Shown: piece after piece, positions 36,277 through 51,834 of the stretch
Position numbering within the stretch: the first letter of the stretch is position 1
Layout: each line of letters opens with the position of its first letter
Assembly (NCBI GenBank): GCA_012033255.1
Contig: JAAUSF010000008.1
Location: 1-64,000, forward strand
Origin: Cyanobacteria bacterium RU_5_0
GTDB lineage: Bacteria; Cyanobacteriota; Cyanobacteriia; Elainellales; Elainellaceae
Direction: 5' to 3'
Length of the DNA stretch: 64,000 nucleotides
Position numbers and translations under genes: made by a program
The notes under the pieces: model-generated
Database searches by the model: none
What the model saw: the letters and a program-made list of their open reading frames with translations, nothing else
Told to the model about the DNA's origin: nothing

Positions 36277-36662
36277 GGGCAAGACTCACCCCTAAAAACC
36301 AGCCAACAGCGGCGGTAACGGTAATATAGACTCGTTCTCCCCACCACCAACTATGCTTTTCATCGGCAACCAGTTGAGGGGGGAATGGCATCCGGGTCTT
36401 TCACCGTTGTTCCTACGATTGAGGCGCGTCCCATCGCTTGAGTGGCATGATACCAGTACAGGGCTGAATGTCCGAGCACATGAGCAATTCCCTCGTAGGG
36501 CACCCCATAGCGGCGCAAGTCTAACCCCTTCTCCACTTCCTCGGGTTTTGCCTTCACTGCGGTTTTGCGAATCAAAGTCATCTCACTAAACTGTTTCGCC
36601 AATTGACTGGGGTAACACCTAAGAAGTATCGAGACGCGAGTTAGAGGCTGTCTACACTCCAT
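36277..36662 (-). pseudogene. Truncated, frameshifted transposase remnant
   Basis: Minus strand. Residues such as RKTAVKAKPEEVEKGLDLRR, YGVPYEGIAHVLGHSALYWY and VGTTVKDPDAIPP run in one frame. At a run of C the reading continues in another frame as QLVADEKHSWWWGERVYITV, then stops being open at the left end. The DEKHSWWWGERVY phrase marks the first catalytic region of a DDE transposase. 36277-36427 is identical to 17999-18149. Its right end overlaps the stop of the next gene. Confidence 0.6.
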
Positions 36663-37998
36663 TCAAAATCAACGGCAATTGGACACTAAAATAGTGCTGA
36701 TAAAGTTGACACCTGACTCTGATTTGGTTCGCCTCCGATTTGATCAAGCCTAGCCCTTCTAATCGAGAAATGAGGGCGAAATCTGGGCAGATATCTCCAT
36801 CCGTATCGATAATTTGCTTGAAGACTTCTGCCAGATCAGGATTTGCTTGCAGGATCGCTAAACAACTTTGGAGGTGATGATTGTAGATTTTGGAGAGAGC
36901 CGAAGTATCCTGCACCAGTTGCTCAAGCGAAACCTCGCCACTCCAGAGATGATAGAGCGCCAGTTGCATAAGATAAGGATGCCCCCCGACCAGGCTCATC
37001 AATTGTTGTGTGGAATCAGGGCTGCTCCAGGCTAGCTCATACCTTTCTGCCAATTGTTCAACTTCGGGTACAGTCAATTCTGGAAGTTCGATCGGCAGTC
37101 CTACATTGTTGAAGGGAGATTGACTCAGCTTAAGCGGAATGCAAACATCGGTAGAATACGCCAAAACCACCCGTAGTTTTTGCAGAATTGGGACTTGCTT
37201 CGCTTCTTCATACCACGATCGCAACAACATTAGAAACTCTCGACATAGCCCTGGATGCTCCAACACCTGATCAAGCTCATTTAACACCAAAACCAAGGGA
37301 GCATCAATGCGGCGCAGCAAATAGCGGCTTAAGTAAAGAGTACAACTGACTTTGCTCCCTGTGCTCGTATCCCAGTATTGATCGATCTTGGGTTCTAGCT
37401 CTAGTTGTAAACTGATGTTGATGCACAGCCAGCGCAGAAACCCAGCTAAATCAGAGAAAACATCATCATCTGCCTGCTTAAAATCTAGACTGGCAATTCG
37501 ATAGTTAAGTGTTGCAGCATGATCAGCAATGCGAAGTAAAAACGAACTTTTGCCCATCTTCCAGGGGGCTTTGATGTGAAGTAATCCACCGAACTTGCTG
37601 ATCTCAGCGTAGGCTTTTGCCGTGATCACGGAGCGATCGACATAAAATTTTGAATGAAGCGGAACCGGACCACCCGGAAACTCTGGAATTTCTGGAGAAT
37701 CTGGCTTTTCAACAACAGTTCGCGGCTTTGCGAACATGGGCTGATCGCTGAACCGTTGCTGAATGAGAGAGCGAAAATTCTTTTTCTTGACGGGTTCCCG
37801 CAACACTTCTGAGAGCGATCGCCACAGTTGCGCCCCTGTATCCCGGATATAGCCGTAATCATAGCCAGACTCTTTTGCGATCGCAGCATACTCTTCACCC
37901 GTCCACGATCGTCGAAACACGAGCGTTTGAACAGGCGTCAATGTACCTGGAGGCAAAATTCGCTCCACAATTTCCAACGCTTCTTCAGCCGTCATCAT
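36652..37998 (-). CDS. AAA-like (STAND) ATPase with vMAP-type N-terminal domain
   Basis: 448 residues from the ATG at 37998; a TTG two codons upstream is also in frame. Residues 1-75 (TAEEALEIVERILPPGTLTP, then GEEYAAIAKESGYDYGYIRD) match the helix-turn-helix-like vMAP N-terminal module common in cyanobacteria. Residues 100-430 are an AAA_35-type ATPase with P-loop APWKMGKSSFLLRIA, Walker B LVLVLNELDQVL and a winged tail. Such proteins occur in predicted conflict or signalling networks. It neighbours the peptide-export island and a transposase remnant; a link to either is inference. Confidence 0.8.
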   Translation of the reverse strand: MMTAEEALEIVERILPPGTLTPVQTLVFRRSWTGEEYAAIAKESGYDYGYIRDTGAQLWRSLSEVLREPVKKKNFRSLIQQRFSDQPMFAKPRTVVEKPDSPEIPEFPGGPVPLHSKFYVDRSVITAKAYAEISKFGGLLHIKAPWKMGKSSFLLRIADHAATLNYRIASLDFKQADDDVFSDLAGFLRWLCINISLQLELEPKIDQYWDTSTGSKVSCTLYLSRYLLRRIDAPLVLVLNELDQVLEHPGLCREFLMLLRSWYEEAKQVPILQKLRVVLAYSTDVCIPLKLSQSPFNNVGLPIELPELTVPEVEQLAERYELAWSSPDSTQQLMSLVGGHPYLMQLALYHLWSGEVSLEQLVQDTSALSKIYNHHLQSCLAILQANPDLAEVFKQIIDTDGDICPDFALISRLEGLGLIKSEANQIRVRCQLYQHYFSVQLPLILNGV

Positions 37999-38227
37999 CC
38001 CCAATCTGACTAACTGTTTGGCAACCGAACCTATTTATCTACCTATTTATCTCACGATGATACCAGCCAAATCCCTCCGCCTTCCAGAACCTAAGGATGA
38101 GTTCAGGATAGAGGACTTGACTGCCGTTGTCTCATTGATTCTTGCCAAATGTTAGCAATCGAAACAATTCTCAGTCCAAAACTAACTGAGGATAATGCCA
38201 GATGGGGATGGTGGAATGGGGATGACG

Positions 38228-38289: not shown

Positions 38290-38568
38290 CTATTTATTCA
38301 GGATATCCTGACGGGATTCATCGAAATCAGGAGACAAGTTTGCTTCAGAGGGGGCTGCTTTGTTAATAATGCCTTCACGAGCATCACTAAACCGCTCACC
38401 CAATCCACCAGCAACGCCTTTCAGATCTTCCTCTGAAAGTTCACCTTCGTCGGGGGTTGCCTTGTTGATAATTCCCTGACGAGCCTCATCAAACCGCTCA
38501 CCCAATCCACCAGCAACACCTTGCAGTTGCTCCTCCGAAAGTTGCTCTTCTTTCTTTTCTTCACTCAT
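38290..38568 (-). CDS. Candidate exported precursor with two Gly-Gly leader sites
   Basis: 92 residues from the ATG at 38568, which has GGAGGA about 9 bases upstream; a longer frame to 38631 is not needed. The leader LSEEQLQGVAGG ends at Gly21. The module LGERFDEARQGIINKATP follows, then a second LSEEDLKGVAGG ends at Gly55, then LGERFSDAREGIINKAAP. A third, shortened module ends LSPDFDESRQDILNK. GG motifs after an LSxEEL-type helix are the cut sites of C39 peptidases, and a C39 exporter lies about 2.3 kb away. The cores have no Cys and few Ser/Thr, so lanthionine or azole chemistry looks unlikely. Transcription is opposite to the exporter genes. Confidence 0.8.
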   Translation of the reverse strand: MSEEKKEEQLSEEQLQGVAGGLGERFDEARQGIINKATPDEGELSEEDLKGVAGGLGERFSDAREGIINKAAPSEANLSPDFDESRQDILNK

Positions 38569-38673: not shown

Positions 38674-38734
38674 ATGTCGGACAAATGTCGGGGAAATGTC
38701 GGATAAAAGTCGGATGAGTGTCGGATAGTGTCGG
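38674..38734 (-). promoter_or_regulatory. Phased direct-repeat array (GTCGG x6)
   Basis: GTCGG occurs at 38676, 38687, 38698, 38709, 38720 and 38730: five exact 11-bp steps apart from a last 10-bp step. The consensus is about AAATGTCGGAT. It is about 105 bases upstream of the precursor start codon. One helical turn per repeat is the layout used by OmpR/PhoB- and SARP-type winged-helix regulators. Confidence 0.6.
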
Positions 38735-38760
38735 ATGAGAGGTTATGGCAGTTTTCAGTT

Positions 38761-39083: not shown

Positions 39084-40175
39084 ATGGCTGATGTTTTACT
39101 CAAAGAACTAAGTAATAGTGATCTTGATTGGATGAGTACGGTGGGACAGCGAGAAACGATCGCTCCTGGCACCGTTCTCGTCAAACCGTGTCAAGATACT
39201 GAATCAATTTATGTGTTGCTTGATGGAACGCTGAGTGTGACGATTCCCCAAAAAGCCAACACGACTGATTCGGGTTCATCCATATCAACCCATGTGTCCG
39301 AGCAAGAAATTGTACAACTTTCACGCGGAGAAATTGTCGGAGAAACATTCCTGTTTAATTTTTGCTCAATGCCAGCCCTGATCAAAGCAACAGGCAAATC
39401 GATCGTCTTGTCTATCCCTCGGCAACAATTAATGAGCAAACTGGAACAAGACATCATATTCGCCGCACATTTCTATCGGGCGATCGCGCTGATCTTGACC
39501 GAGCGACTGCGACAAATCTTGGCATTGTCAGAACAAACTGAATTTAGGGGAACTCAACCGATTAAAGAAGCTCTGTTCATTTTCGCGGAACTGCGCGACA
39601 GTGATATTGATTGGTTGATTCAGACCGGACAGGTTGAGAAAGTTCCCCCTGGCAAAATCTTGGCTCAAGCAGGCAGACCGATTGATGCGCTTTATCTTGT
39701 CTTAGACGGTGTATTGTTGGCGTCAATTCCTGAAGAAGATTACAATCCACTGACAGCCTGCTTCAAATGCTCCCAGGATAGCGACAAACCGTTGGACGAA
39801 ATCGAGGTTGAGCGATTGTCTAGAGGGGCAACCGGTGGAATCATTTCATTTTTAGATTCTCGTCCATTTCCGATGACGCTTAGAGCTTTACAAGAAACCC
39901 TTGTGCTATCCATTCCGCGACAACAGTTAGCGGCTAAACTCCAACAAGATCTGGGATTTGCGTCTCGCTTCTATCGAATAATGGCAATCCAGCTTTCAAC
40001 CTACTTGCAGTCTGCAATGGTTCTCCTCGGCTGTGACCAGCAAACCTATCAGCAGGATCAGGCAATGGATGAGGATATTGAGTATGGCGATGAACTGTGT
40101 CTCACCTCATTGACGCAAGTATCCCAAGCCGCAGTTCGGTTTAATTGGATGTTGAAACGGTTAGGAGTTGTCTGA
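39084..40175 (+). CDS. Protein with two cNMP-binding-like domains
   Basis: 363 residues built from two cyclic-nucleotide-binding-like barrels (about 10-150 and 170-320), each with the pattern PG-x2-L then IYVLLDGTLSV or LYLVLDGVLLA, a long charged insert, LSRGE and a LSIPRQQL strand. No helix-turn-helix is visible, so it is unlikely to be a direct DNA-binding factor. Its stop overlaps the start of the next gene (TGATG), so it belongs to the NHLP exporter operon. Such domains are often linked to NHLP-type exporters in cyanobacteria; their function there is unknown. Confidence 0.8.
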   Translation: MADVLLKELSNSDLDWMSTVGQRETIAPGTVLVKPCQDTESIYVLLDGTLSVTIPQKANTTDSGSSISTHVSEQEIVQLSRGEIVGETFLFNFCSMPALIKATGKSIVLSIPRQQLMSKLEQDIIFAAHFYRAIALILTERLRQILALSEQTEFRGTQPIKEALFIFAELRDSDIDWLIQTGQVEKVPPGKILAQAGRPIDALYLVLDGVLLASIPEEDYNPLTACFKCSQDSDKPLDEIEVERLSRGATGGIISFLDSRPFPMTLRALQETLVLSIPRQQLAAKLQQDLGFASRFYRIMAIQLSTYLQSAMVLLGCDQQTYQQDQAMDEDIEYGDELCLTSLTQVSQAAVRFNWMLKRLGVV

Positions 40176-40786
40176 TGAGTGATGATTCCAAGACAAGCAT
40201 TTTCCGCAAAGAGTCTCTAGAGCGATTGTCTTCTCCAGAACAACTGGATCAACTGATGCAGATTGTCACGCCAAGCAGTTGGATTCCCTTGGCATCACTG
40301 GGGACTCTGGTGCTACTGGCGATCGCCTGGAGCATTTTTGGGCGCATTCCAATCACGACGACAGGCGAAGGCATCCTCGTTTATCCAACGGCCTCTTCTA
40401 ATCAATTAATCAACTTGACGTATTTTGACACTGGCAGCAGCGCCCTGATTCAACCTGGAATGAGAATTATCATCGTTCCTGCTATTGCCAATTCTGAACA
40501 AGCGGGCGGCATCTGGGGACGAGTGAAGAGTGTGTCTACACCGACAATCACAACGCTAAATGCTGTTCAACAGGCTGAATCCTCTGATCCCAATGCTTTG
40601 TCAGATCAGGCGATCGAAGTCATTGCTGAACTGGAATCTGATCCCTCAACGACTAGCGGCTACAAATGGACATCATTAGGCGGCAGCCAGCTAAACTTAA
40701 CACCAGGAACAGCAACGACTGTCCGTATCACCCTACAAGAAAAAGCACCGATCGCCTTTGTCTTTCCGTTTCTGGATAATCGTTAA
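40175..40786 (+). CDS. NHLP bacteriocin-system secretion protein, short form
   Basis: 203 residues from the ATG at 40175 that overlaps the previous stop. The N-terminal phrase ESLERLSSPEQLDQLMQIV and the following membrane segment (WIPLASLGTLVLLAIAWSIF, about 36-55) are the opening of the TIGR03794-type secretion protein. The usual HlyD coiled-coil hairpin is absent: the chain goes straight to a beta-rich C-terminus (QPGMRIIIVP, LTPGTATTVRITL). It probably still links the ABC exporters to the cell envelope. Confidence 0.82.
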   Translation: MSDDSKTSIFRKESLERLSSPEQLDQLMQIVTPSSWIPLASLGTLVLLAIAWSIFGRIPITTTGEGILVYPTASSNQLINLTYFDTGSSALIQPGMRIIIVPAIANSEQAGGIWGRVKSVSTPTITTLNAVQQAESSDPNALSDQAIEVIAELESDPSTTSGYKWTSLGGSQLNLTPGTATTVRITLQEKAPIAFVFPFLDNR

Positions 40787-40839: not shown

Positions 40840-43143
40840 ATGTTTATTAACCCGTTCAAACCTATCCGCTCATCACCAAAACATCAGCGAGTCAAGACGC
40901 CAACTGTTTTGCAGATGGAAGCGGTTGAGTGTGGTGCCGCCGCCCTAGGAATTGTCTTGGGATATTACGGCAAAATTGTACCGCTAGCAGAATTGCGTCA
41001 GGCGTGTGGCGTTTCACGTGATGGTGTAACTGCCGCCAATGTGCTAAAAGCGGCTCGCCGCTATGGCATGGTCGCGAAAGGATTTAAGAAGAGTCTGGAG
41101 AGCGTAAAAAAATTACGGACTCCGTTTATTGTCTTTTGGCATTTTAATCACTTCTTGGTTGTTGAAGGATTTGGGAAAGAACGAGTTTATCTCAATGATC
41201 CGGCTTTGGGACCCAGGAAAGTCTCCAATCAAGAATTCGATGATGGATATACTGGGGTCGTTTTGGTACTGGAACCCGGTGCAGAATTTGAGAAGGGAGG
41301 GCATAAACCTAGCATTATCTCGGCGTTATCAAGTCGCTTACGGGGTTCAGTCGGAGCGTTGCTTTATTGTGTTCTAGCCGGATTTTTACTAGTCATTCCT
41401 AATTTGGTATTACCCGCATTCAGCCAAATCTTTGTCGATAATGTTTTGATGAACGGCAGACTAAATTGGCTGCCCTATCTACTGTTTGGAATGATGTTGA
41501 CCGTCATTCTGCAAGGATTATTAACGCTGCTGCAACTGCGGTATCTGCGAGGTCTGAGAATTAAATTATCCGTGGGGATGTCCAGTCGATTTGTCTGGCA
41601 TGTGTTACGCTTGCCTGTTAGCTTTTATGCTCAACGATTTGCAGGCGAAATCAGCAGCCGCGTTCAGTTGAATGATGATGTCGCCAATGTGTTGTCGGGT
41701 CGCCTTACAACAACTGTAATTAGTGCAGCGATTGTCGTATTTTATGCAGCCGCCATGCTGCAATATGATGCTATTCTGACAGTAATCGTGGTATCTTTCG
41801 CCATCACTAATGTTCTGATTTTGCAATGGGTATCCCGTCAGCGAGTGGATGCTAATTTAAGGCTGGTTCAGGAGTATGGAAAAGCGTCGGGAGTGGCGAT
41901 CGCCGGACTTCAGAGCATGGAGACTCTAAAAGCCTCTGGCTTAGAATCTGATTTTTTTGCGCGATGGTCAGGCTATTACACGAAAGCCGTCAATGCTCAA
42001 CAAGAATTGGGTTTACTCAATCGGATCGTGAGCTTGTTGCCGCCGTTGCTTTCTGCTATAGCGGCGATGGCGCTGTTGGTGATTGGCGGTTTGCGCGTCA
42101 TAAGCGGCGAGTTGAGTATTGGGATGCTTGTGGCGTTTCAGTTGTTGATGCATAGCTTTCAGCAACCCGTTAATCGACTGGTTCAATTTGGCAGCACCTT
42201 GCAGAACTTACAGGGTAATTTAGAACGACTTGATGATGTCTTGAGTAACGGCATTGATCCACAACTCGAAATGGCTGACCCATCGGCAACCAGTTCTGTG
42301 ATCACGGCAACCGGAAAAACCGATGAAACCCCGGATGCGATCGATAAAGTTGATGAGGTGTTAAGTGCCTCCGTGATCGAGTTTGCATCTGTCCCGACGT
42401 ATCGTTTGCAAGGCTATGTCGATCTAAAAAATATTACCTTTGGATATAACCCTTTAGAAGCGCCGTTAATCGCAAACTTCAATCTTTCCATTAAGCCCGG
42501 ACAACGAGTGGCGTTAGTCGGTGGAAGTGGTTCGGGCAAATCGACTGTAGCCAAAGTGATTGCCGGATTGTATGAACCGTGGTCAGGCAACATTCTGTTT
42601 GATGGGATTCCCAGAAATGAACTACCTCGATCGATTCTCACCAATTCGCTCGCGGTGGTTGAACAAGATATCTTGCTGTTTGCCGGTACGGTGCGAGAAA
42701 ATTTGACCCTGTGGGATACGACAGTTTCAGATCAAGCTCTGGAACGGGCGTGTCAGGATGCGGCGATCGAAGATGCAATTTTGTCGATTCCGTGCGGATA
42801 TGATGCTCAACTGCTGGAAGGTGCCGTGAACTTAAGCGGAGGTCAACGACAACGATTGGAGATTGCCAGAGCCTTGGTTAATAATCCTTCGATTTTGATC
42901 ATGGATGAAGCAACGAGCGCCTTAGACACAGAAACGGAGAAGGTGATCGATCGCAACTTCCGTCAACGCGGCTGCACTTGTTTGATTGTGGCGCATCGCT
43001 TGAGTACGATTCGCGATTGCGATGAAATTATTGTTTTAGAGCGAGGCAACGTTGTTCAACGGGGAACGCATGATGAGTTGTGGCATCAATCGGGTTACTA
43101 TGCCCAACTGATTCGCAGTGAAGGAGAATCGTTATCCAGTTAA
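40840..43143 (+). CDS. C39 peptidase ABC exporter (NHLP type)
   Basis: 767 residues. Residues 20-145 are a C39 peptidase with catalytic Cys31 (VECGAAALG), His104 (FNHFLVVEG) and Asp120 (LNDPALG). Six membrane segments follow (about 175-440), then an ABC ATPase with VGGSGSGKST, LSGGQRQRLEIARAL and LIMDEATSALD. It cuts precursors after Gly-Gly leaders and exports the rest, matching TIGR03796-type exporters. The two GG sites in the nearby precursor are the obvious substrates. A charged linker (about 475-520) precedes the ATPase. Confidence 0.94.
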   Translation: MFINPFKPIRSSPKHQRVKTPTVLQMEAVECGAAALGIVLGYYGKIVPLAELRQACGVSRDGVTAANVLKAARRYGMVAKGFKKSLESVKKLRTPFIVFWHFNHFLVVEGFGKERVYLNDPALGPRKVSNQEFDDGYTGVVLVLEPGAEFEKGGHKPSIISALSSRLRGSVGALLYCVLAGFLLVIPNLVLPAFSQIFVDNVLMNGRLNWLPYLLFGMMLTVILQGLLTLLQLRYLRGLRIKLSVGMSSRFVWHVLRLPVSFYAQRFAGEISSRVQLNDDVANVLSGRLTTTVISAAIVVFYAAAMLQYDAILTVIVVSFAITNVLILQWVSRQRVDANLRLVQEYGKASGVAIAGLQSMETLKASGLESDFFARWSGYYTKAVNAQQELGLLNRIVSLLPPLLSAIAAMALLVIGGLRVISGELSIGMLVAFQLLMHSFQQPVNRLVQFGSTLQNLQGNLERLDDVLSNGIDPQLEMADPSATSSVITATGKTDETPDAIDKVDEVLSASVIEFASVPTYRLQGYVDLKNITFGYNPLEAPLIANFNLSIKPGQRVALVGGSGSGKSTVAKVIAGLYEPWSGNILFDGIPRNELPRSILTNSLAVVEQDILLFAGTVRENLTLWDTTVSDQALERACQDAAIEDAILSIPCGYDAQLLEGAVNLSGGQRQRLEIARALVNNPSILIMDEATSALDTETEKVIDRNFRQRGCTCLIVAHRLSTIRDCDEIIVLERGNVVQRGTHDELWHQSGYYAQLIRSEGESLSS

Positions 43144-43154
43144 GGAATGGTTGC

Positions 43155-46115
43155 ATGGATGCAAAGCTGATTAAAGGGAATCAACCGTTGCTGCTTAATG
43201 ATCTAAAGGTCGTATGGTTACTTCAGTCGGGTTCCTTAGCATTATTCGCAACTCGAATTCGCAATGGGGAAGCAGAGGGCGATCGTCGTCATCTCTTCAA
43301 TGTTTTCCCTGGTGAAGCTCTATTTGGGATTGCGCCTGATTCTGACGATGATTGTCTCAGCGTTATTGCGGTTGCCCTTGAACCCGCCGAAGTGGTTCCA
43401 CTTGAATTTTCTTGCAACGAGATAACGCCAGAGAAAGCTGATTTCTTCGATTTCACCCCTGACTCCCAACCCCTGATCCCTAATCCCCATGCCCTTGTGG
43501 AAAATTGGATTCACAAGATTGGTCAGGTCAGTGGTTTACCTCAGCCTAAGTTGGGCGATTTGCTGCCACCTGCTCAATATCTTTCTCTCCTGAAGGGACA
43601 AATTTTTCAATCCCGCGATCAGGTGGTATGGGTGCGGATTCAGCAAGGCACAGCACATTGGATGGGGTATCCAGAATTTCCGCTCACTCCAGAAACTCCC
43701 TGTTTTCCATTGGGAACGGGAATGTGGTTAGTTGCCGATGACAACCTCGAACTCTATGCTCGTGGGACGTCGGAAGTGGAAGGAAATCACGTCATCCACA
43801 ATGGCTTAGCGCATCTCTATACCTTTTTCCTCCGGTGGATCGAATGGGTTGAAGCGCAAGAGATGCAGGCAGCGTTACGCCAATTTCAAGCGAGGCAGCA
43901 ACTCAACCGCCAAGTGACTCAGCAAACCATTCAAAATCTGGCGGCTGTGCTTAAGCCACAACCCGATGGTTTCTTGCAGGCAGACACGCCGCTTCTGATT
44001 GCCGCAGGAGCCGTGGGAAAGGCACTAGGAGTGACGATCGAGCCGCCCATGCGATCGGAAGATCTGAAGCGGGTGAAAGAACCATTAGAGGCGATCGCTC
44101 GTTCTTCTCGATTGCGTTTGAGACGAGTTTTGCTGCGAGACAAATGGTGGAAAAAAGATGCTGGTCCACTCATCGCCTATACGTGTATCCATAAACACCC
44201 AGTTGCCCTGTTGCCGGTTGCTGGAAATCGATATGAACTGTTTGACCCGGTGGAAGCTGGGTTAGTGAACGAACCGGATACGCCTGTTGAATCTACCCCA
44301 AAATTAGCATCAGGTCGGATCGCGATCGATGATCAAGTGGCATCTACTCTTGAGCCGGTAGCATTCATGTTTTATCGACCGCTACCCGATGGCGTGATGC
44401 GGTCGATCGATTTACTCAAGTTTGCGCTTTCAGGACGACAACGCGATTTAATCGCCATTTTGTTAACTGGCGTTGCAGCGACGCTGTTAGGGATGTTGGT
44501 TCCGCAAGCCACTGCCGTCTTGATTGATCAAGCCATTCCTTATGGCAATGCCGGATTATTAGCTCAACTGGGAATTGGCTTGTTAGCCGTTGCGTTTGGC
44601 GGAACCTGTTTTCAGCTAGGGCAGGCGATCGCATCCATGCGAATTGAAACGATCTCAGATGCGTCACTACAGGCAGCCGTGTGGGATCGATTGTTGAAAT
44701 TACGAACGACTTTTTTCCGACACTATTCAGTTGGGGATCTCAATTCGCGTGTCTCCGGGATCAGTGCCATTCGGCGTAAGTTAAGCGGCACCGTTCTACA
44801 GACCATCTTTTCTGGCTTCTTTGCCCTGCTGAATTTAGGATTGCTGTTTTACTACAGTGTTTCGTTAGCGGTTCTGGCGTTAGTAGTCGCGATCGTCGTC
44901 ATGACATTCACGATCGTTTCCGGTACATTGCTGATTCGCAAGAATCGTCCGTTAATTGAGATTGAAGGTGAAATTATTGGTGTCATCATTCAGTTGATCA
45001 ACGGAGTTCCTAAACTGCGAATTGCAGGGGTTGAGGAACGCGCATTCGCTTACTGGGGACAAAAGTATACTAAACAACTCCGGCTGACTCTCAGTACTCA
45101 ACGGCTGGAAGATGCGGTAGTGTTGTTCAACACCATACTGCCGACCTTAACGACCGTGGCATTGTTTTGGTTAGCAAGTACGCTCATTACTCCCAATCCA
45201 GCCAATGCTACCCAATTGACAACAGGATCATTTCTAGCATTCAGCGTTGCCTATGGCACGTTCATTGGCGGTGTGACGAGCTTAAGCAGCACGGTGATCG
45301 AAGTACTCGACATCATTCCGTTATGGCAGCGATCGAAACCCATTCTCGCGGCTGAACCGGAAGTCGATCTGAATAAAGCTGATCCGGGGCGGCTGTTGGG
45401 TGAGATTGAGGTAGATCATGTTTCCTTTCGCTATCGAGAGGATGGGCCCCTGATTCTGGATGATGTCACACTCAACATTCAACCGGGAGAATTTATTGCG
45501 ATCGTCGGTACGTCTGGAAGCGGCAAATCGACACTATTTCGCTTGCTGTTGGGCTTTGACACTCCCATCTCTGGCACGGTTTATTACGACGGTCAAGACT
45601 TAGCCGGATTAGACGTTGCAGCCGTCCGACGACAGCTCGGTGTAGTGTTACAAAACAGCCGAATTAATGCGGGTTCAATCTTTGAAAATATTGCGAGTGG
45701 TGCGCTCATCTCAATGGATGAAGCATGGATGGCAGCCGAAATGTCTGGATTAGCCGATGATGTTCGGGCTATGCCAATGGAGTTACATACTGTTATCAGC
45801 GAAGGCGGAACGAACCTTTCCGGTGGACAACGGCAGCGATTGATTATCGCCCGCGCCTTGGCATTGAAACCCCGTATTTTATTGTTAGATGAAGCAACGA
45901 GTGCATTAGATAATCAGACGCAGGCGATCGTCAGTAAGAGTCTCGATCGACTCAAAGTCGCGCGAATCGTGATCGCTCACCGTCTCAGCACTATTCGGAA
46001 TGCCGATCGGATCTATGTTCTAGATGCGGGGCGAATTGCCCAACAAGGCACATTTGACGAATTAGCCACGCAACCCGGATTGTTTGCTCAGTTGATCCGT
46101 CGGCAAGTTACATAA
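43155..46115 (+). CDS. NHLP-type ABC exporter, second subunit
   Basis: 986 residues. An N-terminal 400 or so residues contain a cNMP/cupin-like start (LQSGSLALFATRI, then NVFPGEALFG) and a long region typical of TIGR03797 proteins. Then come six membrane segments and an ATPase with VGTSGSGKST, LSGGQRQRLIIARAL and LLLDEATSALD. No peptidase cysteine. It probably pairs with the C39 exporter. A Pro-rich in-frame stretch at about residues 101-114 (TPDSQPLIPNPHAL) is made from a dispersed repeat-like sequence (43450-43497). AAGGAA precedes the start. Confidence 0.92.
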   Translation: MDAKLIKGNQPLLLNDLKVVWLLQSGSLALFATRIRNGEAEGDRRHLFNVFPGEALFGIAPDSDDDCLSVIAVALEPAEVVPLEFSCNEITPEKADFFDFTPDSQPLIPNPHALVENWIHKIGQVSGLPQPKLGDLLPPAQYLSLLKGQIFQSRDQVVWVRIQQGTAHWMGYPEFPLTPETPCFPLGTGMWLVADDNLELYARGTSEVEGNHVIHNGLAHLYTFFLRWIEWVEAQEMQAALRQFQARQQLNRQVTQQTIQNLAAVLKPQPDGFLQADTPLLIAAGAVGKALGVTIEPPMRSEDLKRVKEPLEAIARSSRLRLRRVLLRDKWWKKDAGPLIAYTCIHKHPVALLPVAGNRYELFDPVEAGLVNEPDTPVESTPKLASGRIAIDDQVASTLEPVAFMFYRPLPDGVMRSIDLLKFALSGRQRDLIAILLTGVAATLLGMLVPQATAVLIDQAIPYGNAGLLAQLGIGLLAVAFGGTCFQLGQAIASMRIETISDASLQAAVWDRLLKLRTTFFRHYSVGDLNSRVSGISAIRRKLSGTVLQTIFSGFFALLNLGLLFYYSVSLAVLALVVAIVVMTFTIVSGTLLIRKNRPLIEIEGEIIGVIIQLINGVPKLRIAGVEERAFAYWGQKYTKQLRLTLSTQRLEDAVVLFNTILPTLTTVALFWLASTLITPNPANATQLTTGSFLAFSVAYGTFIGGVTSLSSTVIEVLDIIPLWQRSKPILAAEPEVDLNKADPGRLLGEIEVDHVSFRYREDGPLILDDVTLNIQPGEFIAIVGTSGSGKSTLFRLLLGFDTPISGTVYYDGQDLAGLDVAAVRRQLGVVLQNSRINAGSIFENIASGALISMDEAWMAAEMSGLADDVRAMPMELHTVISEGGTNLSGGQRQRLIIARALALKPRILLLDEATSALDNQTQAIVSKSLDRLKVARIVIAHRLSTIRNADRIYVLDAGRIAQQGTFDELATQPGLFAQLIRRQVT

Positions 46116-50371: not shown

Positions 50372-50405
50372 TTCATCCTTCATCCTTCATCCTTCATCCT
50401 TCATC
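50372..50405. repeat. Heptamer tandem repeat (TTCATCC)4-5
   Basis: Four full units and one partial, running into the rbcL stop codon (50404-50406). Second STRR of the rbc operon, in the rbcL-rbcX gap. Confidence 0.9.
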
Positions 50406-51834
50406 AGACGGTATCAACAGCTTCAAATTCAAACTTGATTTCCTTCCACAGTTCGCAAGCTGCCGCCAACTCAGGACTCCAGCGAGTCGCTTCACGAATG
50501 ATGTCACCCCCTTCGCGCATGAGGTCACGCCCTTCGTTCCGCGCCTGAACACAAGCTTCCAGAGCTACTCGGTTAGCCGTTGCACCAGGAGCATTTCCCC
50601 ACGGGTGTCCTAGTGTACCACCACCAAACTGAAGTACAGAATCGTCACCGAAGATCTCGACCAGCGCAGGCATATGCCAAACGTGGATACCACCGGATGC
50701 TACTGCCATTACCCCAGGCATCGAAGCCCAATCTTGGGTGAAGAAAATTCCGCGAGAGCGATCTTGCTCAATATAGTTTTCGCGCAGCAGATCGATGAAA
50801 CCAAGGGTGATTGCCTTATCCCCTTCGAGTTTACCCACAACGGTTCCAGTGTGGATGTGGTCGCCGCCTGACATTCGCAAGCACTTCGCCAATACCCGGA
50901 AGTGCATCCCGTGGTTCTTCTGGCGATCGATTACCGCATGCATCGCTCGGTGGATGTGCAGCAAAATCCCATTGTCACGACACCACTTTGAGAGGGTAGT
51001 GTTAGCGGTGAAGCCTGCGGTTAAATAATCATGCATGATGATGGGCATTTTGAGTTCTTTCGCATACTCTGCCCGTTTCAGCATCTCTTCGCAGGTGGGA
51101 GCAGTACAGTTAAGGTAGTGCCCTTTGATTTCACCCGTTTCAGCTTGGGATTTGTGAATCGCTTCAGCCACGAAAGTGAAACGATCGCGCCAGCGTTGGA
51201 ACGGCTGAGAGTTGATATTTTCGTCGTCCTTGGTGAAGTCTAGACCGCCGCGCAAACACTCATACACAGCACGACCATAGTTCTTCGCAGACAGACCAAG
51301 CTTGGGCTTAATAGTGCAACCCAACAATGGACGACCATACTTATTAATCTTGTCGCGCTCAACCTGAATTCCGTGCGGCGGACCTTGGAACGTCTTCAAG
51401 TAGGCAACAGGAATCCGCAAATCTTCCAGACGGAGAGCTTTCAGAGCCTTAAACCCAAACACGTTACCTACGATCGAGGTCAGCATGTTGGTGACAGAGC
51501 CTTCCTCAAACAAATCCAGAGGATAAGCAATGTAAGCGATGAACTGATTGTCTTCACCGGAAACGGGTTCGATGTCATAACAACGACCCTTGTAGCGATC
51601 CAAATCGGTGAGTAGGTCAGTCCACACGGTTGTCCAGGTTCCGGTGGAAGATTCAGCCGCAACAGCCGCACCAGCTTCTTCAAAAGGCACTCCAGGCTGC
51701 GGAGTCACCCGGAAAGCTGCCAAAATGTCAGTATCTTTGGGTGTGTAATCTGGCGTGTAGTAGGTCAGACGGTAATCCTTAACCCCAGCCTGATACCCAG
51801 CTTTGGTCTGGGTTTTCGTTTGCGAGTATGACAT
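50404..51834 (-). CDS. rbcL: RuBisCO large subunit, form IB
   Basis: 476 residues. Calvin-cycle carboxylase fixing CO2 to ribulose bisphosphate; it works in carboxysomes. The carbamylated lysine and its acidic partners lie in [13 protein letters not shown] (about 196-208), the catalytic segment [11 protein letters not shown] is near 172, and loop 6 is in [10 protein letters not shown] (about 330-340). The start has AGGAAGGGAGATC immediately upstream. The terminal EFEAVDTV is the RbcX-binding tail. First gene of its operon. Confidence 0.99.

Follow-up and report, generated by a model that had tools for sequence, protein, structure and literature searches.

What does a cyanobacterium export when a single small precursor carries two double-glycine (GG) leaders, each in front of nearly the same core, and what might the exported peptide do? 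This question is raised by a gene in the window, a stretch of 64,000 nucleotides from Cyanobacteria bacterium RU_5_0, whose genome is available as 5.9 Mb in 269 contigs and is 89% complete; a further ORF of the window (50404-51834) was read as the RuBisCO large subunit. GG-peptide clusters are common in cyanobacteria, and most of them are without known function. For the locus described here, matching sequence units suggest a previously undescribed pairing of two secreted partners, in which the core of the GG peptide recurs as the repeat of proteins with a Sec signal peptide.

The precursor contains three copies of a 15-residue unit and reads MSEEKKEEQLSEEQLQGVAGG / LGERFDEARQGIINK / ATPDEGE / LSEEDLKGVAGG / LGERFSDAREGIINK / AAPSEAN / LSPDFDESRQDILNK (Table 1). 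Its ATG start at 38568 follows a GGAGG ribosome-binding site, which is also found in relatives. After the first GG, the self-similarity of the chain lies 17 SD above that of shuffled sequences, and 0 of 200 shuffles reach it. A previous sequence-only reading of this DNA quoted the leaders LSEEQLQGVAGG and LSEEDLKGVAGG and the Cys-free cores LGERFDEARQGIINK and LGERFSDAREGIINK; both modules are present exactly as quoted, and the cores indeed lack Cys. That reading further described a third module that has lost its GG. By comparison with relatives, the third unit is instead a bare core, since one homolog (G012) also has such a core (LNERFEKSQKDNLDS) and the Sec-exported relatives described below are made only of such cores. 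Cleavage at both GGs would not release equal copies but two unlike peptides, one of 34 aa, in which core 1 is followed by leader 2 at the C-terminus, and one of 37 aa with cores 2 and 3.

Table 1. Features of the precursor locus (positions refer to the window)
Feature	Position	Strand	Basis
AAA_35 protein downstream of the precursor	36652..38004	-	PF14516; conserved beside the precursor in some clade members
GG-leader precursor, 92 aa: two leader-core modules and a leaderless third core	38290..38568	-	ORF, RBS, seven family f1 homologues with two modules
Core 3, LSPDFDESRQDILNK, without leader	38293..38337	-	G012 also has a bare third core
Core 2, LGERFSDAREGIINK	38359..38403	-	Protein 80% identical to core 1
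Leader 2, LSEEDLKGVAGG	38404..38439	-	Six invariant positions identical to those of leader 1
Core 1, LGERFDEARQGIINK	38461..38505	-	Sequence; R, F and final K conserved; low-confidence helix (AlphaFold model)
Leader 1, MSEEKKEEQLSEEQLQGVAGG	38506..38568	-	C39-type pattern: GG at -1/-2, V-4, L-7, L-12; invariant in 8 sequences
Six tandem GTCGG units, 11 (once 10) bp spacing, in the divergent promoter region; putative operator	38676..38735	+	Shuffle test
CAP2, two cyclic-nucleotide-binding domains, bacteriocin-type transport-associated protein	39084..40175	+	TIGR03896, 256.6 bits (cut-off 161)
Short HlyD-like adaptor without middle region	40175..40786	+	TIGR03794, 156.7 bits (cut-off 156.2); model middle unmatched
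PCAT, C39 peptidase / ABC exporter	40840..43143	+	TIGR03796, 1144.9 bits
Second ABC exporter subunit (ABC2), without peptidase	43155..46115	+	TIGR03797, 990.2 bits

Divergently to the precursor, an export cassette is encoded, in which the start of hlyD overlaps the stop of the CAP2 gene (TGATG). CAP2, PCAT and ABC2 clearly belong to their respective families, and HlyD exceeds its cut-off by half a bit. The C39 exporter on which the sequence-only reading relied adjoins the precursor, and the C39 motifs of the PCAT with the catalytic Cys, His and Asp are intact (QMEAVECG, HFLV and DPA). With both leaders and this adjacent PCAT, the precursor has the sequence features of a GG-leader substrate of a C39 exporter. 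It scores below the cut-offs of the known precursor families, namely CTB family bacteriocins (NF038167, 26.3 bits, cut-off 32), NHLP leader RiPP precursors (TIGR03793, 17.9 bits, cut-off 50.9) and Nif11-like leader RiPP precursors (TIGR03798, 17.7 bits, cut-off 32.3). The expectation of an unmodified product is supported in the neighbourhoods covered: no modification enzyme, the mark of a RiPP cluster, was found among the neighbours examined in the window, where part of the flanking ORFs was scanned, or among ten proteins that flank short-HlyD loci elsewhere.

The HlyD of the window lacks the middle (hairpin) region of the full-length TIGR03794 adaptor. Its AlphaFold model, which is of modest confidence (pLDDT 66), contains a transmembrane helix and beta strands and no coiled coil, and the best Foldseek matches are weak (BesA, PDB 4kkt/4kku, E ~1e-3, the HlyD of an HlyB/D complex, EmrA and MacA). 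Sequence searches of the PDB with the precursor or the short HlyD gave nothing informative. BesA is an adaptor without alpha-hairpin and belongs to a drug efflux pump, whereas the short HlyD is encoded with a C39 peptide exporter. The absent hairpin raises the question of whether such exporters reach the outer membrane; delivery to the periplasm was considered and is not claimed, because BesA suggests that hairpin-less adaptors can still serve outer-membrane channels.

Homologs of the precursor, with two GG leaders in all cases, are found in seven genomes of the same family (48-61% identity). Oculatella sp. LEGE 06141, a culturable relative, has the locus. In all seven, the precursor lies head to head with CAP2, followed by the short HlyD, PCAT and ABC2 as far as the contigs reach; the L056 contig stops at HlyD and that of L052 inside ABC2. 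Both leaders of the eight aligned precursors have the same unvarying residues, L-12, S-11, L-7, V-4, G-2 and G-1, as would be expected if both leaders are recognised. Leaders 1 and 2 additionally keep distinct residues across genera, which argues that the window-type leader pair is old. Comparison of the close pair L052 and L054 gave a dN of 0.088 and a dS of 0.71 (dN/dS ~0.12), a ratio indicating that the precursor is under purifying selection.

The divergent promoter region of the window contains a run of six GTCGG units, compared to at most two in 2000 shuffles. Runs of three to five are present in L052-L056 and fewer units in L057 and L058. The pattern occurs in only two other places of the genome and was not convincing as a regulon marker. 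The AAA_35 protein, whose N-terminal part may be a regulatory domain, adjoins the precursor in L052, L054, L056 and L058 with 51-58% identity and is partial in L055. In L052 and L053 (G021 and G020), two ORFs of 135 and 224 aa with one domain each take the place of CAP2, which is a single 363-aa gene in the window. Further neighbours were seen at individual loci: genes for MscS-type channels lie near two Nostocaceae cassettes (L059:3516-5468 and L063:10796-12736), possibly by chance, and two cassettes belonging to the EDGGF/HDSGQYS half of the clade described in the following have genes for FIST-domain proteins nearby (L110:1465-2724 and L112:2982-4151).

Apart from a few fragments or intermediate frames, HlyD matches in 242 genomes comprise a short class of 184-252 aa and a long class, whose members mostly measure 377-559 aa and have the N-terminal half set apart from the C-terminal one. 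Phylogenetic analysis of 51 PCAT proteins placed the 30 short-HlyD cassettes, without exception, on one side of a branch with an SH-aLRT support of 100; since these NHLM cassettes were picked by similarity to the HlyD of the window, short forms at a greater distance may have escaped. The search for related repeated precursors near NHLP exporters, which the sequence-only reading had proposed, was successful and revealed chains with up to four GG modules. Repetitive cores, defined by at most 1 of 200 shuffles being as self-similar, were found in 28 of 33 precursor candidates of short-HlyD cassettes and, by the same test, in 1 of 24 candidates of long-HlyD cassettes. Most Nostocaceae precursors carry one GG leader and two cores per chain; two leaders are present in the window family, G217, G329 and G033, three in G005, G007 and G010, and four in G011 and G028. 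Two modules of the G005 precursor are identical over 72 nt, indicating that some module arrays are recent. The closest plasmid cassettes (66-67% PCAT identity) belong to the long-HlyD class, and one of them, on a Nostoc plasmid, adjoins TOMM enzymes.

Additional GG precursors were observed in the genome of the window itself. A second tandem-leader precursor is encoded on contig C81 (G000 C81:32540-32722; L002, L069) and reads LTEEQLTQVSAG-SDGGFRRKHDEL..., LSDADLSQVSAG-ADGGFNR; it is a relative of the EDGGF type seen in other genomes, and no export cassette was found within the 18 kb examined around it. Contig C263 (G000 C263:16673-18059; L004, L006, L008) carries an array of three more GG precursors that are weakly CTB-like (LTAEQAAIVEGG and similar); one of them is apparently short or broken.

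In the half of the short-HlyD clade that includes the window, the unit forming the GG core recurs as the repeat of proteins with a Sec signal peptide, encoded elsewhere in the same genome. Sec export of these proteins is a prediction from sequence. They were first encountered in relatives and then in the genome of the window, where contig C63 encodes a Sec repeat protein of the form MKRLTLTTLSVLALITVAAPAMA-LTDRFDDSRQEMINK-LSDRFDDSRQEMINK and contig C222 a second one with three units. A profile built from such Sec proteins (A2) has matches in 32 of the 242 genomes and reciprocally recovers the precursor of the window at 2.7e-9. The Sec unit varies by lineage and tracks the GG core: the window family has the RF type, Nostocaceae have FDELRRENLDKDA and G038 has LTGRSAQEFTDGLGNK. 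Five core types have a Sec partner in the same genome, and two of them, RLEHLDNQTK and RPPSGDSNPSDL, were predicted before the search. For cores of the RLEHLDNQTK type, eight genomes were tested, and these encode several Sec proteins with the RLEHLDNQTK unit; a single-core RPPSGDSNPSDLNNPTVD peptide is accompanied by Sec repeat proteins of the RPPSGDSNPSDLNNPTVD unit in G015 and G018. In the RF type, the unit opens with a Leu that comes immediately after a signal-peptidase-like AxA in the Sec proteins and immediately after the GG in the precursor; in the other core types, both sites lie within a few residues of the unit start. In G029, an apparent cassette remnant with the short GG precursor LSDRFQGARDQTINRLSYG and a truncated HlyD match (L035 / L089) was observed; the Sec partner of this genome, with ARDQVINRL units, is intact. 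Searches of Pfam and PHROGs assigned neither the core nor the Sec proteins to a family, and the ORFs most widely shared around the Sec genes are the repeat proteins themselves.

Cores resemble the Sec repeats of their own genome more than expected from permuted pairings, with p=1e-5 (the limit) for 17 genomes, p=5e-5 within the window family (f1), p=2.8e-4 with one genome per genus and p=0.05 within the ENLDK type alone. Shared ancestry accounts for part of this match, and the permutation does not remove all of it. Gene conversion as the cause is disfavoured by the codons in most pairs: in G205, 13 of 14 residues but only 2 of 13 codons match between core and Sec repeat, and in G027 the values are 14 of 17 and 3 of 14. 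The codons of G205, G027, G022 and G229 do not follow the residue match, which makes recent gene conversion improbable in these genomes. The case is less clear for G015 and G038, in which codon matches are higher (13/20 and 8/12) and some sequence exchange may have occurred. Control cores of long-HlyD cassettes (five genomes, searched in seven) gave 17 matches, all of them at cassettes, and no Sec partner. EDGGF and HDSGQYS cores, which make up the other half of the short-HlyD clade, had no matching Sec proteins in the genomes tested, and the pairing is therefore no rule for the whole clade. Searches with the RF-type profile A2, which is weak for their core type, gave no Sec match in G211 and G194, two genomes with clade-A cassettes.

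How could these observations be explained? We propose, at a probability of roughly 45%, that the exported peptide is a short, separately regulated partner of the Sec repeat proteins and that the two bind each other or a common target. The gene would encode an unmodified double-glycine precursor with two leader-core modules and an extra core, which would be cut and exported by the divergent CAP2 / short HlyD / PCAT / ABC2 cassette. The GG peptide and the Sec repeat proteins would both arrive beyond the inner membrane, where binding to each other, or to one common target, could keep the repeats matched within a lineage; the peptide might act, for instance, as a nucleator, cap or competitor of repeat-protein assembly. 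A further reading, put forward tentatively at somewhat below even odds, is a two-route system of matched repeats: one unit would leave the cytoplasm as a C39-cut GG peptide, through a PCAT cassette with a shortened HlyD, and also within long Sec repeat proteins, and the two partners would co-diversify by lineage because recognition of each other, or of a common target, is required. The sequences show the anatomy, conservation, cassette, clade and matched Sec partners, whereas we infer that C39 would cut one GG or both, that the product would be exported, where it would arrive and that it would act as a partner.

It is also conceivable, although unlikely, that both gene products are multi-copy signalling pro-peptides, from which the same short signal is released by proteolysis between the units, with the PCAT as the regulated and Sec as the general route. 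Tandem near-identical units, many of them ending in K or R, and a dedicated divergent promoter with an 11-bp repeat array would fit such a function, and heterocyst differentiation in Nostoc depends on HetC, a C39 exporter that carries a nucleotide-binding domain (PMC10986499). However, A or S is the last residue of many Sec units (G012, G009), so that no single protease site recurs, and the spacers differ; no receptor gene was recognised near the cassette, and up to 29 matching stretches per genome would be unusual for a signal. Somewhat less probable is a biofilm or matrix peptide that acts alone, the Sec proteins being unrelated and sharing a low-complexity helical repeat by descent or convergence. 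In Synechococcus elongatus, the GG peptides cleaved by PteB, a C39 exporter, are proteins of the matrix (PMC4997328, PMC9981879), but the within-genome match of five core types, including the proline-rich RPPSGDSNPSDL, and the advance prediction of two of them speak against unrelated Sec proteins. Least probable is a class II-like bacteriocin with the Sec repeat proteins as resembling immunity or decoy proteins: the names of the cassette families refer to bacteriocin export, GG clusters of cyanobacteria are as a rule interpreted as bacteriocins (PMC3140520), and a match between toxin and decoy would be expected, but no recognisable immunity gene adjoins the precursor, G013 has Sec families for which no matching GG precursor was found, and the acidic, hydrophilic cores, together with the numerous Sec partners and the EbfG precedent (PMC4997328, PMC9981879), lead us to favour co-assembly or competition.

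Through the proposed partnership with Sec repeat proteins, all five core types gain a candidate partner, and with candidate partners named, the function of these peptides becomes accessible to binding and double-deletion tests, beyond antimicrobial screening alone. Furthermore, tandem GG leaders, up to four per chain, would offer natural substrates with which to study how a C39 exporter handles several cut sites.

The open-licence literature searched yielded no description of the core strings, of tandem GG leaders, of the short-HlyD clade or of matched Sec partners; individual traits are shared with several described systems, of which three were available in part, and the statements on them refer to the accessible text. 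Multi-core microviridin precursors likewise contain several cores per chain (PMC5934393); their cores are processed by a peptide cyclase, whereas here the leader is repeated and no modification enzyme was found among the neighbours examined. With the NHLP and Nif11 precursors and the TIGR03794/03796/03797 set (Haft 2010, PMC2887384), the locus has the three export families in common; it differs in a precursor that stays under the cut-offs, the absent HlyD middle and the lack of a TOMM or lanthipeptide enzyme among the neighbours examined. EbfG1-4 of S. elongatus are likewise small GG peptides processed by a C39 exporter, PteB, with no modification enzyme mentioned (PMC4997328, PMC9981879). However, EbfG proteins contain one GG motif each, their sequences differ from the precursor of the window, and EbfG1-3 form amyloid, whereas the window core is modelled as a helix with low confidence. 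Neither tandem GG leaders and repeated cores nor a short HlyD or Sec partners appear in the accessible text on group V cyanobacterial bacteriocin clusters (Wang, Fewer and Sivonen 2011, PMC3140520). The export families themselves are known, and the cluster resembles group V as described there: both combine a bimodular CAP_ED protein (here CAP2), an HlyD, which is shortened in the window, a short-type C39 ABC exporter, a second ABC exporter, here without peptidase, and small GG precursors.
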